Source: Tepidimicrobium sp.
GTDB lineage: Bacteria; Bacillota; Clostridia; Tissierellales; Tepidimicrobiaceae
Direction of reading: 5' to 3'
NCBI GenBank assembly: GCA_012839395.1
Contig: DUNJ01000018.1
Location: 1-34,732, forward strand
DNA: 34,732 bases
The first letter of the stretch is position 1. Every line of letters starts with the position of its first letter. Below, piece by piece: positions 6,541-34,732 of this stretch. The notes under the pieces are model-generated. The model made no database searches, had not been told where the DNA came from, and worked only from the letters and a program-made list of their open reading frames with translations. The translations under genes and the position numbers were made by a program.

Positions 6541-7239
6541 ATGGACTTAGCTGGCAACATACTCATTGTGGAGGATGAAGAATCCATAAGAAAGTTTGTT
6601 AGGATAAATCTTGAGAGGGCCAATTTTTTGGTTAGGGAGGCTGAAACAGGTGAGGAAGGGCTTAGGATTGTGCAGGAAGAAGAGATAGATTTAGTGGTAC
6701 TTGATATAATGTTGCCTGGCATAGATGGGTTTGAGGTGTGTAAAAAGTTGAGGGAACAATTTCCTAGAATCGGAATAATAATGCTTACCGCAAAATCCCA
6801 AGATATTGACAGGATTATAGGGTTGGAACATGGAGCAGATGATTATATGGTAAAGCCTTTCAATCCAAGGGAATTGGTCCTTAGGATAGAATCCCTTCTC
6901 AGAAGGATTAAAGGATCTATAGGGGAAGCACCTAATATGATCATTTATGACCCTTTTACTATGGATACATATTCTAGAAAGTTTTTTAAAAGTCAAAGCA
7001 AAATAGATTTAACTCCTACGGAATTCTCAATAATAAAGCTATTCATTGGTAACCCAGGTAGAGCCTTTACTAGGGATGAAATATTGAATTTAGTCTGGGG
7101 ATACGATTTTATGGGGGATTCAAAGATTGTGGATGTGAATATAAGGCGATTGCGTTCTAAGATAGAGGATGAACCTAGTAAGCCTTATTATATTGAAACC
7201 GTGTGGGGATTAGGCTATAGGTGGAGAGATAAGGAATAA
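6541..7239 (+). CDS. OmpR/PhoB-family response regulator
   Basis: Receiver domain (ILIVEDEESIRK, VVLDIMLPGIDG, MLTAKSQD, VKPF) plus winged-helix DNA-binding domain. ATG at 6541 follows GGAAGGAGG; the longer ORF start at 6400 is unlikely. Confidence 0.93.
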   Translation: MDLAGNILIVEDEESIRKFVRINLERANFLVREAETGEEGLRIVQEEEIDLVVLDIMLPGIDGFEVCKKLREQFPRIGIIMLTAKSQDIDRIIGLEHGADDYMVKPFNPRELVLRIESLLRRIKGSIGEAPNMIIYDPFTMDTYSRKFFKSQSKIDLTPTEFSIIKLFIGNPGRAFTRDEILNLVWGYDFMGDSKIVDVNIRRLRSKIEDEPSKPYYIETVWGLGYRWRDKE

Positions 7240-7255
7240 CTTTTAGGAGGACAAC

Positions 7256-8659
7256 ATGAAATCCAGTATAAGAAAAAGGCTAGTAGGAAACTTTATGTTA
7301 GTTATAATCATCACCGTGGTGATACTGGAGATATTCCTATTCAATGGAGTGCGACATTATTATTATAGAGGTATAGAGGAGATACTATTCAATCAACTAT
7401 TATTTACATCGGATATCTATTCTAGGTACTTTTCTGCTACAAACCTAGAGGATATGATAATCGATGATATAGATGTATTTTTATATCAAACAGATGCCCA
7501 GGTTCAAATATTAAATTTGGAAGGTAAGGTGTTAATGGATTCAATAGGAGTAATCCATCAATTCAATGCAATAGATACTAGCGATATATTAATGGCCTTG
7601 GATGGGGAAAAAGGGGTTTGGATTGGAAGTGTGGAATATGATACATCACCAGTTATGGCGATATCATATCCATTGAAGATAGAAGATAGGATTGTAGGTG
7701 TATTGAGGTTTATTACATCCCTTGAGGAAACAAACAGCATAATAAATAGTATTGCTAAGGTATTACTTATATTTGGATTGGTGGTAATTTTCATATCTGG
7801 AGGGGTTAGTCTCTTATTAGCCAACACCATAATAAAACCATTGGAAGATATAACGAAGGTGGCAGAAAAGATGGCCGCTGGTCAGCTGAAAGTTAGATCC
7901 GGAACAAAATTTAATGATGAGATTGGGAAACTTTCCGACACTTTAAATTATATGGCTGACGAGCTTATAAGAAAGGAACAGCTTAAAAATGATTTCATAT
8001 CTTCCATATCCCACGAACTGAGAACCCCCCTAACTTCCATCAAGGGTTGGGCTATCACTCTACAAGGAGCACAATTGAGTAAAAATCCCCTGTTTAAAGA
8101 TGGATTAAAGATAATAGAGCAGGAAAGCGATAGGTTGGGGAATATGGTAGATGAACTACTAGATTTTTCGAAATTTGTATCTGGAAGGATTGCCTTGAAT
8201 AGGGAAGAGGTGGATATTGGGGATATAGTGGATAGGATTAGCAAGCAATTACAGCCTAAGGCGAAGGAATCCAATATATCTTTAAAGGTTTTTCAAGAAT
8301 CAAACTTACCCATTATACTTGCCGATGTAAATAGGGTCAAGCAAGTGTTTATCAATCTGTTAGACAATGCGTTTAAATTTACACCTAAGGGGGGCAAGGT
8401 TTCGGTAAAAACTAGTCATAAAAAGGATATGGTAGTAATTGAAATAGAGGATAACGGTTCCGGAATAGCCAAGGAGGATATTCCACATATTAAGGAAAGA
8501 TTTTATAAGGGAAAAAATAGCAGATCAAATAGCGGATTGGGGCTTTCTATATGCGATGAAATAATGGATCTGCATGGTGGTTCTATGGAAATAGAAAGTC
8601 AATTGAATAAGGGGACAAAGGTTAAAGTGTCCTTTCCAATAGGGAGTGGTACAAGGTGA
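7256..8659 (+). CDS. Sensor histidine kinase (HAMP, HisKA, HATPase)
   Basis: Two TM helices flanking an extracellular domain; SISHELRTPLTSIKGW H-box; N box LLDNAFKFTP; G boxes DNGSGI and GLGLSI. Confidence 0.93.
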   Translation: MKSSIRKRLVGNFMLVIIITVVILEIFLFNGVRHYYYRGIEEILFNQLLFTSDIYSRYFSATNLEDMIIDDIDVFLYQTDAQVQILNLEGKVLMDSIGVIHQFNAIDTSDILMALDGEKGVWIGSVEYDTSPVMAISYPLKIEDRIVGVLRFITSLEETNSIINSIAKVLLIFGLVVIFISGGVSLLLANTIIKPLEDITKVAEKMAAGQLKVRSGTKFNDEIGKLSDTLNYMADELIRKEQLKNDFISSISHELRTPLTSIKGWAITLQGAQLSKNPLFKDGLKIIEQESDRLGNMVDELLDFSKFVSGRIALNREEVDIGDIVDRISKQLQPKAKESNISLKVFQESNLPIILADVNRVKQVFINLLDNAFKFTPKGGKVSVKTSHKKDMVVIEIEDNGSGIAKEDIPHIKERFYKGKNSRSNSGLGLSICDEIMDLHGGSMEIESQLNKGTKVKVSFPIGSGTR

Positions 8660-25255: not shown

Positions 25256-25347
25256 ATGTTATAATAGGAAGTGATGATGTCCTAGATATTGACAGTAATA
25301 GTTTGTTTATGTAATATTACATTACAGAAGTTATCGGAGGTGTTTTG

Positions 25348-25710
25348 ATGGTAGAGAGACCCGACATTGGAAGAAGGATTAGAGACGCTAGACAGAAAAA
25401 CAGGCTAAGTCAATCGGAAGTAGTGGATAGACTTATGGAATACGGTATAAGTATGAGTAGGGAAACGCTAAGTAAAATTGAAAATAATAACAGGTCCGTA
25501 TCAGCCATAGAGCTAAATGCATTGTGCAATATATTCGATGTAGATATGAATGAAATTTTTGCTAAGGAACCGAAGGAAGAGGATTTGGTGACTTTTTTTA
25601 GGAAAAAAAATGCCTCGGAGAATACATTAATAGAGATTGCTAGGTTGCAAGATATGATAAGAACTTTTATCAAACATGAAAAGATGTATATGGAAGGGTT
25701 GAATTCATAA
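25348..25710 (+). CDS. XRE-family helix-turn-helix regulator
   Basis: GRRIRDARQKNRLSQSEVVDRLMEYGISMSRETLSKIENNNRSVSAIELNALCNIFDVDMNEIF is a typical HTH_3 domain. Confidence 0.92.
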   Translation: MVERPDIGRRIRDARQKNRLSQSEVVDRLMEYGISMSRETLSKIENNNRSVSAIELNALCNIFDVDMNEIFAKEPKEEDLVTFFRKKNASENTLIEIARLQDMIRTFIKHEKMYMEGLNS

Positions 25711-25724
25711 AATTAAGCGGGAGG

Positions 25725-26522
25725 ATGGATTCATTGAAGAAGGAGATAAATATTCCAGAAGAATTATTTAGACTTAGAATGAAGGAATTGGCTGAAGACG
25801 TACGGATTAAATTTGCTAAGAGGGGAGTATCGGATATATTCGATATACTTTCAAAGATTGCATTTTTAATACGTAAGCCATTGGATACTCATGAATTATC
25901 CGGATTTATTACCTATTTTGAAGATCGATTTATAGTATATCTAAATAGCGGATTTACATTAGGGCATGAACGATATACGGCAGCCCATGAACTATATCAT
26001 ATTGTGTATAATGAGGATATATTAAAAAAGGAAAAGGTTTTTTTAGACAAGGAAAGGTATAAAGATGAAGATATAAGGGCAGATGTATTTGCTGCAGAAT
26101 TTCTAATGCCCGAGGACTATGTAAAGGAGGTATTTTATAGGACTGTAAATGTAGATATGGATGAGGTTCTTCCAAAGCATATAATTCGTATGCATAATCA
26201 TTTTAAGGTAAGTTATAAGGCTATGTTAAAAAGGCTTATTCAACTTAAATTGTGTTCTATGGATAGATATTTTGATCTTTTAGAGATTTGTTCTCTAGAC
26301 AATAAGGATAAACTTCAATCCTTAACCAGGAAGGAAGGCTATACAATAGATTTAATAATCCCATCAAATACAGTATATGTTCCGGAGGAATATGTTGTAT
26401 ATGTAAAATCTAACTACGAAAATGGAAGAATATCCTATGAGGATATGAAGAAGAGCTTTAAATTTATAGATTTGGATCCTATGGATTTTGGATACGAGAA
26501 AAACAAGCAATATAATATGTGA
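25725..26522 (+). CDS. ImmA/IrrE family metallopeptidase
   Basis: Zinc-binding AAHELYHIVYN (HExxH) and RADVFAAEFLMPEDYV; paired with an XRE gene. Confidence 0.9.
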   Translation: MDSLKKEINIPEELFRLRMKELAEDVRIKFAKRGVSDIFDILSKIAFLIRKPLDTHELSGFITYFEDRFIVYLNSGFTLGHERYTAAHELYHIVYNEDILKKEKVFLDKERYKDEDIRADVFAAEFLMPEDYVKEVFYRTVNVDMDEVLPKHIIRMHNHFKVSYKAMLKRLIQLKLCSMDRYFDLLEICSLDNKDKLQSLTRKEGYTIDLIIPSNTVYVPEEYVVYVKSNYENGRISYEDMKKSFKFIDLDPMDFGYEKNKQYNM

Positions 26523-26592: not shown

Positions 26593-26634
26593 TTATTTGC
26601 TGAGATGTTCGAAAATAATAATTATGTATAAAAA

Positions 26635-26663
26635 TTGAACTTATTGGTATAAAGTGCTACAAT
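26635..26663 (+). promoter_or_regulatory. Putative sigma-A promoter of the CARF-HEPN operon
   Basis: TTGAAC-17 bp-TACAAT, ~50 bp upstream of the 26714 start and after a terminator. Confidence 0.6.
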
Positions 26664-26713
26664 AATATCAAAACGAAAAACCTATACTTTTTTCTTTTTA
26701 CTAAGGTGATTAT

Positions 26714-27940
26714 ATGGAAAGTAATTTAACGACGTTAATTTCGCTTATAGGCAAAGGGAAAACAGAGGAAGGAACTAAAGGATATATAAGCACTAGATAT
26801 TATTATGATGAAACTAAAGATACTATATATACATCCTTCTTTGGCTCTGCTTTGTACAAAATTCTTAAAAAACAAGATCATAATATAGATACATGGCTTA
26901 TATTTGGAACTAATAAATCCAGCTGGTCAGAGCTTCTTTATGTAATTGAAGAAAAACACCATGATAAGATGATCGAACTATACGACACAGTTTATGATGA
27001 AGAAAATGAAGGCATCTCCCAACCTCTACTCTCCCAATGGGAACAAGCCCTTCAAAAGCATGTGCCGGGATTGCGTTTAATCTTAGTAGATCCTTTAGAT
27101 TATCAGATTTATATAGATCGTATGATACATGAAATCCCCGATACTAAAAGGAGAGTAGTTCTTGATATAACCCACGCTTTTAGACATATGCCTGTTATAA
27201 TTGCTTTTTCGTTAATGACACTCAAACATATCAAAGATATATCTGATATTATGGTATATTACGGTGCCCTTGAACTAAAGACAAACAGGAATGATCAAAA
27301 CGAGCCTACCCCTATATTAAAAATCGATTTTATCAATAATTTAGTCTCATATGCTGAAAATATTGCAGTATTTAATTACTCTGGATATTTTCCTAATATT
27401 TTGGATAATCTAAATATTTCCAAAACAGACAAAACTTATTTTTGGCTTGAAATGAATAGGCAACCAAGAACCGATTTGGAAACAATCAATATGAATCTAA
27501 AAGAAAAATCGAAGGAAAACAATCATCAAGGTAAAATAGCGGAATATATAAATAAAGAAATAGAGCCACTTACAGGTGCATCATTACATAGAAGAATGAT
27601 AGAAAGGTCAAAATTCTTTTTTGCTAGAAAACAGTATTTGCAATCATTAGTATTATTACACGAAGGGCTTATTATAGCTATGAGTAGAAAATATGGATTA
27701 GAACATGGACAAGACTATGATGGATATAGGGCTGTCAGAGATTATATCAAGGATAATAAGAATACTATATTTAAAGACAAGGCTCAGATAGACGCTTATT
27801 ATAAGTTAGTACATACAAGGAACTCAGCTGTTCATGGTACTACAGCTAGAGGAACCCAAAACTTTTTAGAACAAGAGGAACATTATGAAGCCTTATTTAA
27901 AGAAGGTATAGAAATATATAAATATATAACGGGGGAATAA
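26714..27940 (+). CDS. CARF-HEPN CRISPR-associated ribonuclease (Csx1/Csx2, TIGR02221/TM1812-like)
   Basis: N-terminal ISLIGKG...YYYDETKDTIYTSFFGSALYKIL; CARF signature VVLDITHAFRHMPVIIAFSLM; C-terminal HEPN motif HTRNSAVHG (R-x4-H). Confidence 0.82.
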   Translation: MESNLTTLISLIGKGKTEEGTKGYISTRYYYDETKDTIYTSFFGSALYKILKKQDHNIDTWLIFGTNKSSWSELLYVIEEKHHDKMIELYDTVYDEENEGISQPLLSQWEQALQKHVPGLRLILVDPLDYQIYIDRMIHEIPDTKRRVVLDITHAFRHMPVIIAFSLMTLKHIKDISDIMVYYGALELKTNRNDQNEPTPILKIDFINNLVSYAENIAVFNYSGYFPNILDNLNISKTDKTYFWLEMNRQPRTDLETINMNLKEKSKENNHQGKIAEYINKEIEPLTGASLHRRMIERSKFFFARKQYLQSLVLLHEGLIIAMSRKYGLEHGQDYDGYRAVRDYIKDNKNTIFKDKAQIDAYYKLVHTRNSAVHGTTARGTQNFLEQEEHYEALFKEGIEIYKYITGE

Positions 27941-27942
27941 TT

Positions 27943-29649
27943 ATGTTAAAATTTATATCCTTATTAGGGACTAATCAGTACTTACCCTGCAATTATTATT
28001 TTGATGAATATAAGGCAAACGATTGCTGCTACATCCAAGAAGCTTTGGTACAAATATTAGCCGAAAATGACATAGTACCTGACAAAATAACTATATTTAC
28101 AACAGAAGATTCTTACAATAAAAATTGGATAGCAAATGCGTATAATGATACTAGGCCAGGATTAAATGAAGAGTTGAATAATATATCTAAAAAATTTCAC
28201 ATTCCCGTGGAAAATGTAATGATACCTGAAGGACATAATGAAGAGGAGTTATGGGAAATATTTAATGCCATATTAGATCAATTGGAGAAAGAAGATGAAA
28301 TAATATTAGACATTACTCATTCTTTCAAATACTTGGCTATGTTAACATTTATAGTAATAAACTATGCACGTATTGTAAAAAACTGCAGTCTTAAAGCCAT
28401 ATATTATGGAGCTTTTGATGTATTAGGATATACACGTGAAGTAGAAAAACTTCCTATAGAAGAAAGAAATGCACCAATATTTGATCTTACATCTTTTACA
28501 AATCTATTTGATTGGACTATTGCAATTGATAGATATTTAGCTACAGGAGATGCATCTTTGGTAAAAAATTTAACCTCCTTAGAAATTAAAAAAATAAACG
28601 AGAAAATAGGTAGGAAGGTTTCTGAATCAAATTTAGACAAATCTATTTTATTTAAAGACCCCAATGCCCTAAGAGATCTTTCTAAATCTATGGATAATTT
28701 TAGTAATACTGTGGCTACATGTAGAGGACCTAATCTTACCAGTGCAATATCTTCTCTTAAGGAAAGTATCCATACTGTAGTAGAAAATGCAGCCCATGAA
28801 AGGATAAAACCTCTAAGCCCTATAATGGAAATGGTTGAAAAAAAGTTTGATAGCTTTAGCCACACTGATGAATATATAAATACAATAGAAACAGCCAAAT
28901 GGTGCCATGAAAATAAAATGTATCAACAAGGACTTACTATCTTACAAGAAGGGCTTATAAATTATGTTTGTGAAAAATGGGGCTTGGATAGGTTAAGTTT
29001 AACAAATAGGGATAAAGTTGGTGCTATTGCCTGTTATGTAAAAGAACACCCTATTGAAGCTGATTATAAATCACTAGGCTTAAATGAACAAAATGCTAAA
29101 GATTTATTAATGTTAATTTATAATGTTGGGGATATGAGAAATGATATAAATCATGCAGGCTGGAGAGAGCAAACTAATAAAGTAAATAAATTTAGCACAA
29201 ATTTAAAAGACTTCATTCAAAGGGCCGAAATCATTTTAACCAATGATTCTAACAATGTGGAAGGGAAATACAGGCAATTATTATTAATGTTTTCACATGA
29301 TCTGACAGAAGAACAGAAGTCTGAAGCAAAAGAAAAGTTTAATATATCACGATTTATAAAACTTAATGATGAGCTTTCAAATAAATGGGCAAATGTTCCC
29401 CCACATTTGGATGATCTAGGAGAATACCTTGAAGAATTTAAAGAGTGGTTAGATGAAAAAGGGCAGGTTGGGGATTATGTTTTAATCCAAGGAGACTTTG
29501 GTGCCACCATGTCAATGGTGGAATATGCTAAAAGCAAAAAAATTATTCCAATATATGCAACTACAGAGAGGAATGTAGTAGAAGAAAAAACAGGCGAGAC
29601 TATAAAAATATCACGGGAATTTAAACACGTGATGTTTAGAAAATATTAA
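27943..29649 (+). CDS. CARF-HEPN CRISPR-associated protein fused to C-terminal Csx20-like domain
   Basis: N-terminal MLKFISLLGTNQYLPCNYYFD; CARF signature EIILDITHSFKYLAML; HEPN motif MRNDINHAG (R-x4-H); residues ~442-567 LLLMFSHDLTEEQ...WANVPPHLDDL...GDYVLIQGDFGATMSMVEYAKSKKIIPIYATTER...REFKHVMFRKY resemble stand-alone Csx20. Confidence 0.78.
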   Translation: MLKFISLLGTNQYLPCNYYFDEYKANDCCYIQEALVQILAENDIVPDKITIFTTEDSYNKNWIANAYNDTRPGLNEELNNISKKFHIPVENVMIPEGHNEEELWEIFNAILDQLEKEDEIILDITHSFKYLAMLTFIVINYARIVKNCSLKAIYYGAFDVLGYTREVEKLPIEERNAPIFDLTSFTNLFDWTIAIDRYLATGDASLVKNLTSLEIKKINEKIGRKVSESNLDKSILFKDPNALRDLSKSMDNFSNTVATCRGPNLTSAISSLKESIHTVVENAAHERIKPLSPIMEMVEKKFDSFSHTDEYINTIETAKWCHENKMYQQGLTILQEGLINYVCEKWGLDRLSLTNRDKVGAIACYVKEHPIEADYKSLGLNEQNAKDLLMLIYNVGDMRNDINHAGWREQTNKVNKFSTNLKDFIQRAEIILTNDSNNVEGKYRQLLLMFSHDLTEEQKSEAKEKFNISRFIKLNDELSNKWANVPPHLDDLGEYLEEFKEWLDEKGQVGDYVLIQGDFGATMSMVEYAKSKKIIPIYATTERNVVEEKTGETIKISREFKHVMFRKY

Positions 29650-29680
29650 TATAAGATAATACAATTTAGGAGGTGGGGGG

Positions 29681-29770
29681 ATGATTGACAATTATGATGT
29701 AGCCCTTGCTGTACTATTAAGTGTAACCTATCCAAGGCCTATATATTTCTGGCCTCTTATATTTTTATAA
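29681..29770 (+). CDS. Putative 29-aa hydrophobic peptide
   Basis: AGGAGGTGGGGGG-ATG followed by MIDNYDVALAVLLSVTYPRPIYFWPLIFL*; could also be a decayed gene start. Confidence 0.35.
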   Translation: MIDNYDVALAVLLSVTYPRPIYFWPLIFL

Positions 29771-29799: not shown

Positions 29800-29889
29800 A
29801 TATGTAAGAGTTAAATATATGTTTACTAAATGATTTGGACATATAGGGGAAATATAGATAAAAGAGGATAGAATATGGAGGTGAAAATA

Positions 29890-33737: not shown

Positions 33738-34541
33738 ATGGTTGAAAAAAATAAAATTTATAATATTGAAATAGAAGATTTAGGTAGCAGTGGAGAAGGT
33801 GTGGGAAAAATAGATGGATTTACAGTATTTGTACCACAGGCTATACCTGGCGATAGGATAAGGGCAAGAATAACTATTCTAAAAAAGCGATATGGAATAG
33901 GGGAAATTTTAGAAATATTAGAGCCTTCTAAGGATAGGATAGAGTCTAGGTGTAGTTTATTTGGAAAATGTGGTGGCTGTCAGATTATGCATATAGATTA
34001 TAATGCCCAGCTTAAGATGAAAAGGAATAAGGTAGAACAAACATTAAGTAGAATAGGAAAGATTAATACAAAAGTTAATCCCACAATTGGAATGGATAAT
34101 CCCTTTAAGTATAGAAACAAAGGCCAATTCCCTGTTGGAATAAAAAATAATAAGGCTATTATAGGGCCTTATGAAATGGGTAGCCATAATATAGTAGACA
34201 CTAGTTATTGTCATATTCAGGCCCCTATTACTGAAAAGATTATCAAAACAATAAAAAAATATATTGATGACTTTAGTATAGAAGTCCATGATGAAGTAAA
34301 AAGAACAGGCTTAATTAGAAATATAGTAAATAGATTTGGATTTGCCACAGGAGATGTTATGGTGGTCATTGTAACCAATGGTAGGAAACTTCCTTACAAG
34401 GATGAACTAATAAGGATGTTAAAAGAAAATGTACCAGGATTAAAAAGCATAGTACAAAACATTAATACTAGGAATACAAATGTTGTTTTAGGACATGAGA
34501 CCCTTGTATTATATGGGGAGGATAAAATCGTAGAGAGATGA
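33738..34541 (+). CDS. 23S rRNA (uracil-C5)-methyltransferase, RlmD/RumA family, 3'-truncated
   Basis: TRAM domain IYNIEIEDLGSSGEGVGKIDGFTVFVPQAIPGD; Fe-S cysteines CSLFGKCGGCQIMHIDY; YRNKGQFPVG. The SAM-binding C-terminal domain is absent and the stop at 34539-34541 lies past the artefact junction. Confidence 0.88.
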   Translation: MVEKNKIYNIEIEDLGSSGEGVGKIDGFTVFVPQAIPGDRIRARITILKKRYGIGEILEILEPSKDRIESRCSLFGKCGGCQIMHIDYNAQLKMKRNKVEQTLSRIGKINTKVNPTIGMDNPFKYRNKGQFPVGIKNNKAIIGPYEMGSHNIVDTSYCHIQAPITEKIIKTIKKYIDDFSIEVHDEVKRTGLIRNIVNRFGFATGDVMVVIVTNGRKLPYKDELIRMLKENVPGLKSIVQNINTRNTNVVLGHETLVLYGEDKIVER

Positions 34542-34732
34542 TATATTAAATTTTAAATTACCTATATAGTCTACGATTTTATCCTCCCCATATAATACAA
34601 GGGTCTCATGTCCTAAAACAACATTTGTATTCCAGGATTAAAAAGCATAGTACAAAACATTAATACTAGGAATACAAATGTTGTTTTAGGACATGAGACC
34701 CTTGTATTATATGGGGAGGATAAAATCGTAGA
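34434..34732. repeat. Terminal duplication: 101-bp direct repeat with an intervening 64-bp inverted copy; likely artefact
   Basis: 34434-34534 equals 34632-34732 as read; 34570-34633 is the reverse complement of 34471-34534. Confidence 0.9.

Follow-up and report, generated by a model that had tools for sequence, protein, structure and literature searches.

A Csx1-Csx20 fusion protein, a probable type III-A CRISPR effector with its own off-switch, appears orphaned beside a truncated cas10 in Tepidimicrobium sp.

The gene at 27943..29649 on the forward strand of contig DUNJ01000018.1 of the Tepidimicrobium sp. metagenome-assembled genome (MAG) GCA_012839395.1 (positions 1-34,732 of the forward strand, the whole stretch of 34,732 nucleotides analysed, are called the window) encodes a 568-aa protein with the domain order CARF-HEPN-Csx20, which profiles and orthologues identify as a Csx1-Csx20 fusion. 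Very probably, a Csx1-type effector belonging to a type III-A CRISPR system is here joined to its own off-switch, and the cutting of its operon in this genome has left the fusion behind, together with an adjacent Csx1a gene, as an orphaned pair.

The reading frame extends from an ATG to a TAA as an uninterrupted frame of 568 codons, and the single ORF proposed in an earlier note on this DNA is present with all of the strings quoted there. Since orthologues in two isolate genomes match it end to end, the fusion ORF is not an artefact of the MAG; a two-gene or frameshift origin, the splitting into two proteins that the earlier note had allowed for, is ruled out by the open frame together with these orthologues. 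The CARF domain, a predicted cyclic oligoadenylate sensor of approximately residues 1-205 (27943..28560, forward strand) which is also supported by the structure model, is recognized by TIGR02221 at residues 4-210 (E values of 1.9e-28 to 1.3e-28; 99.9 bits against an NCBIfam cut-off of 76.25) and, with its DxTHG motif at residues 120-145, by TIGR02549 (E 6.5e-7; 29.2 bits against an NCBIfam cut-off of 21). The catalytic HEPN motif R399-N-D-I-N-H404 (29137..29154, forward strand) occupies invariant alignment columns, with R399 and H404 kept in 47/47 homologues aligned at these columns. Residues 442-568 (29266..29646, forward strand) constitute the predicted Csx20 ring-nuclease domain, of which residues 446-568 match NF040559 (CAS_Csx20) with E values of 1.4e-46 to 6.4e-48; the score of 157.9 bits is more than twice the curated cut-off of 70, and the 123 residues represent a full-length family match. 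All columns invariant in eight family members are kept in this domain, as are all invariant or near-invariant columns of a set of 44 sequences, and the family-invariant S/H near the N-terminus, Q17, D70, QG..GA, P.Y.T..R and F.H..FR.Y are present. The CARF domain, the HEPN motif (RNDINH) and the Csx20-like C-terminus had all been called from the letters of the DNA, and all three calls are borne out. As a whole, the protein matches the PADLOC model CARF2--CARF_HEPN_CSX20 (PDLC01843) with an E value of 2e-170, from residue 2 to 568 of the protein and from position 3 to 498 of the 498 of the model. A scan of the window for tRNA and Rfam RNA found none, and its two ends carry a perfect 49-nt inverted repeat (1-98) and 64-nt inverted repeats (34434-34732), both probably assembly artefacts.

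Structure prediction, which the earlier note had proposed as a check, led to the same kind of protein. For the AlphaFold2 model of the full-length protein (13 sequences; mean pLDDT 85.1, pTM 0.61), with low confidence only in the linker 435-441, the PDB search ranked first the Marinitoga ribonuclease/ring-nuclease fusion Csx1-Crn2 (8y6z, E 4.8e-16; 8y7g, E 8.3e-16; prob 1.00), followed by Csx1 of S. islandicus (6qzt); as the pTM is modest and the alignment rmsd high, the relative placement of the domains is not established by this model. With the Csx20 domain modelled alone (44 sequences; mean pLDDT 95.5), the fold search placed Sso2081 and Sis0455 among the first few matches at prob 0.99-1.00, a weak E of 0.004-0.02 and a TM of ~0.5, with zero PDB matches at E <0.001. 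Weak by itself, this predicted likeness to ring nucleases is in line with a DALI comparison in the literature that matched Csx20 to Sso2081 (PMC12409355). The fold searches took over from sequence searches of the PDB, which gave nothing useful with the full protein and, with the Csx20 profile, weak chance-like sortase matches and Sis0455 at E 1.2.

The ring-nuclease role assigned to Csx20 in the earlier note holds, while its wording as a proposed activity is outdated, as a stand-alone Csx20 has been demonstrated to degrade cA4 and, at ten-fold higher enzyme, also cA3; the co-occurrence of Csx20 with Csx1 is strong (PMC12409355). In Csx1-Crn2, two sites compete for cA4 and the RNase is limited by the ring nuclease (PMC7293037). 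By analogy, a self-limiting RNase is the best reading for the Csx1-Csx20 family, for which it is well supported, and we infer the same mechanism for the protein of the window. cA4 made by Cas10 would bind to the dimeric CARF domain and switch on the HEPN RNase, while the C-terminal Csx20 domain would compete for cA4 and linearise it. The RNase activity of the fusion, and of the adjacent Csx1a, would consequently be limited in time and would need cA4 above a threshold.

Among 20 genomes of the family that were searched, orthologues of the fusion are encoded by the isolates [Clostridium] ultunense DSM 10521 (82% identical) and Clostridium sp. Cult1 (79%), by a Tissierellia MAG (62%) and by Schnuerera sp. 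xch1 (35%). In the two isolates, Csx1a and Csx1-Csx20 are followed by Csm1/Cas10, Csm2, Csm3, Csm4 and Csm5 and then by a 255-aa ORF without NCBIfam match. Cas10 of these isolates has the GGDD cyclase motif but, unlike Cas10 of two further genomes of the family (G001 and G006), is without the N-terminal HD motif, so that nucleotide signalling is probably its main output. Csx1a of the window (26714..27940, forward strand), directly 5' of the fusion, is a second CARF-HEPN protein of 408 aa without a Csx20 domain (TIGR02221, 9.9e-26; PADLOC CARF_HEPN, 5.3e-156) and is 82-83% identical to its counterparts in both isolates. The pair of Csx1a and fusion is kept in the two isolates and the Tissierellia MAG. 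Csx1a itself has an intact DITHAFRHMP motif and an intact HEPN motif RNSAVH and is without a ring nuclease of its own. In Schnuerera sp. xch1 the fusion is the first gene of a type III-D-like locus (Csx10, Csx19, TIGR03986), and in three further genomes (G001, G006 and G018) Csx1 and Csx20 are separate genes of one operon. CRISPR arrays, sought near the orthologous loci, were seen only at the Schnuerera locus. Just upstream of the pair in the window, an HTH regulator and an M78-type (ImmA/IrrE-like) peptidase (25345-26522) resemble PADLOC PDC-M69B (2.5e-34) and capP (3e-20) and might form another defence cassette.

Directly downstream of the fusion, tblastn and nucleotide alignment identify the truncated 5' end of cas10 (29681..29719, forward strand), consisting of 13 codons, MIDNYDVALAVLL, plus the ribosome-binding site, with 84.6% identity (tblastn; 11/13 residues) to Cas10 residues 1-13. 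Past codon 13 the similarity is lost and the frame stops at 29770, the next gene being an ArsR regulator at 29875; the nucleotide homology to the two isolates extends over 26623-29716 at 84.5% and then ends inside cas10. This stub, the Csx1a gene and the deviation of the CARF motif discussed below are features absent from the earlier note. In the own genome (MAG 80.6% complete, 249 contigs), searches found neither Cmr2 nor an intact Cas10 palm domain, nor Csm3, nor a SMODS-type CD-NTase. A weak Cas10-palm match on another contig (G000:C134) was treated as unrelated; it is located in a 1806-aa frame, and most of the relatives that were examined likewise have frames of ~1800 aa. A second type III-A locus on contig C74 (L048; G000:C74:6500-8500) contains a frameshifted and internally deleted cas10 pseudogene, the last piece of which continues in frame into a Csx1 HEPN fragment (190-aa ORF 7065-7637), and behind it an intact cas6 and then a GerA-type spore-germination operon. 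The stub and this pseudogene would thus represent two independent losses of the type III-A signalling core. Since intact Cas10, Csm3 and SMODS-type CD-NTase were not found in this 80.6%-complete MAG and the second type III-A locus is a pseudogene, the pair of Csx1a and fusion appears orphaned.

The domain calls and the single-ORF fusion of the earlier interpretation stand on profiles, orthologues and model, but no intact source of cyclic oligoadenylates was found in the MAG (~81% complete), for which reason operation of the self-limiting switch in Tepidimicrobium sp. is doubtful. An intact cas10 could be located on the missing sequence, and the boundary at 29716 might conceivably have arisen as a join in the assembly. 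If an intact Cas10 is encoded in the ~20% of the genome that the MAG lacks, the pair would be a functional effector acting in trans with it, which we regard as possible but rather unlikely. While the open frames, the intact HEPN and Csx20 residues, a dN/dS of ~0.24, the 80.6% completeness and the intact Cas6 retained on C74 are in favour of such a Cas10, the cas10 stub directly adjoins the pair, and the sole other Cas10 is a pseudogene in an 80.6%-complete MAG from which Csm3 is absent. A parallel loss in the Tissierellia MAG with the 62% identical orthologue also speaks against it, as there no Cas10 was found above the cut-off and the fusion carries a TGA within the Csx20 domain, with a sequencing error possible. 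In a genome of the same genus (G003, 96% complete), the sequences flanking the pair have their homologues on different contigs and the pair itself is absent; it may have been inserted already truncated or may have been truncated in place.

The CARF signature of the fusion, D123-I-T-H-S-F-K129-Y-L-A132 (28306..28341, forward strand; homologue alignment), keeps D, T, H and F of DxTHxFRxxP, while R129 is replaced by K and P132 by A, so that the SFKYLA quoted in the earlier note, which is silent on the deviation, is a deviant version of SFRxLP. Arginine occupies position 129 in 53/54 homologous CARF sequences, K129 of the window protein being the sole exception, and proline occupies position 132 in 46/54, the alanine being uncommon. 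The two replacements could reduce cA4 binding. As lysine is tolerated at the arginine position in the wider CARF superfamily, K129 is a hint, not proof, of damage.

Substitution patterns bear on the same question. The dN/dS of the fusion is 0.24-0.33 between the window and the two isolates (0.24 with [C.] ultunense) and 0.21 between the isolates, while Csx1a has values of 0.14-0.17; the open frame and the low dN/dS suggest selection on the fusion over most of its history. A decaying remnant, in which the signal source was lost recently, the pair is drifting and R129K/P132A are early damage, is a reading that we hold as plausible, if tentative. It would account for the lone non-arginine among the 54 CARF sequences, for the stop codon in the orphaned copy of the Tissierellia MAG and for the excess of amino-acid changes in the window lineage over that of [C.] ultunense in both genes (33 v 17, p 0.024; 31 v 16, p 0.029); however, the excess over Clostridium sp. 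Cult1 is not significant (36 v 28, p 0.32; 30 v 19, p 0.12), lysine is a tolerated residue as stated, and the 976 codons of both genes contain zero frameshifts or stops. The identity of the fusion gene to both isolates is ~93% over 27949-28848 and 64-73% over 28999-29445, which comprises HEPN, linker and early Csx20, and is then higher again; the dip suggests mosaic ancestry or fast evolution.

The effector ORFs, which remain open without Cas10, can also be seen as answering to cyclic oligonucleotides from a CBASS-like nucleotidyltransferase or an incoming element, with Csx20 as sponge or scavenger. This is very improbable, as a SMODS-type nucleotidyltransferase is among the genes not found in the 80.6%-complete genome and the published activity of Csx20 is on cA4 and, weaker, on cA3 (PMC12409355). 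Still less credence is given to an orphan pair kept as a stand-alone cassette which senses a different or foreign cyclic nucleotide and in which K129 and A132 reflect a changed ligand specificity. An effector with its own off-switch, orphaned by the cut of its operon, is the preferred reading.

The search for other Csx1-Csx20 fusions recommended in the earlier note yielded such proteins. A scan of named genomes with the Csx20 alignment yielded 80 loci, ten of which are true fusions by the criterion of >300 aa in frame upstream together with a match to the Csx1 profile; 'fused' calls with <300 aa upstream of the Csx20 match were dropped as neighbouring genes. The ten belong to C. ultunense, Clostridium sp. 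Cult1, three Tissierellia/Thermoanaerobacterales MAGs, Schnuerera, Hydrogenibacillus schlegelii, two more Bacillota MAGs and an Asgard archaeon, Candidatus Harpocratesius repetitus, whose fusion has 678 aa (L088:4354-6387). In all five fusions examined further, PDLC01843 was the best model. One stand-alone Csx20 was found in a viral scan, and a plasmid scan gave no clear single-ORF fusion, with the adjacent annotated genes csx2 and csx20 as best match. In a tree of the Csx20 domain with 11 fused rows, which has few columns and was made by a quick method, four changes are needed and the starred branches force at least two, and a single fused clade is rejected (p-AU 0.012; likewise few columns and a quick method). 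The fusion would thus have arisen at least twice across Bacillota and one Asgard archaeon. As many unfused Csx20 genes sit ~50 bp or less from a Csx1 gene, repeated fusion would be easy.

Within the fused clade, one gene (L067:6001-6375) encodes only MMKFVSRLGTGRYIPCNYYLED (~22 N-terminal residues) and then Csx20, and is placed between Csx1a and a Cas10 with GGDD, both intact. To judge from this arrangement, CARF and HEPN have been lost by an in-frame deletion and the predicted ring nuclease has been kept, which suggests that Csx20 has a function of its own. This survival beside an intact GGDD Cas10, as well as the family-invariant columns kept in the window protein in both sequence sets, argues against a catalytically dead C-terminal domain with a regulatory or oligomerisation role in place of a ring-nuclease function, which is improbable even though the related Csx15 is almost inactive in vitro (PMC12409355). 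The two or more origins and the reversal at L067 suggest that the limitation in time of the signal has repeatedly been selected. Fusion fixes the ratio of effector to off-switch at 1:1, and a single protein is thereby enough to test the signal logic of type III CRISPR, as for Csx1-Crn2; the orthologues of C. ultunense and Clostridium sp. Cult1, with cultured hosts and an intact adjacent cas10, suit tests of this second, independently evolved solution, and the window illustrates the fate of such effectors once the signal maker is lost.

The architecture CARF-HEPN-Csx20 is already catalogued in PADLOC-DB, where PDLC01843 spans the entire protein with an identical set and order of three domains. 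The name of this model presumably derives from the CARF classification of Makarova and co-workers, 2020. In the literature that was searched, no paper on a Csx1-Csx20 fusion by that name was found, nor one testing such a fusion. Stand-alone Csx20 (NF040559; PMC12409355) is of the same family, the copy in the window being joined to Csx1; as the published ring-nuclease census considered candidates of <=250 aa only, fused forms are missing from its counts. A ring nuclease likewise forms the C-terminus of the effector where Crn4 is fused with Csm6-2 or TIR-SAVED, but other effector and ring-nuclease families are involved (PMC12830947). A database entry for the architecture, a tested analogue of the mechanism and a publication on Csx20 activity thus already exist. 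What is new is this member of the fusion family with its apparently orphaned state, the multiple origins of the fusion and the reversal at L067. Among the closest known systems is Marinitoga Csx1-Crn2 (PMC7293037; 8y6z, 8y7g), in which a ring nuclease likewise follows a CARF-HEPN RNase at the C-terminus; there, however, it is Crn2 (DUF1874), whereas the protein of the window carries the putative ring nuclease Csx20, predicted to be CARF-like/Rossmann and, on weak fold matches, nearest to the Crn1 protein Sso2081, and differs further by a second CARF-HEPN gene upstream and by a genome, an 80.6%-complete MAG, in which no Cas10 was found.
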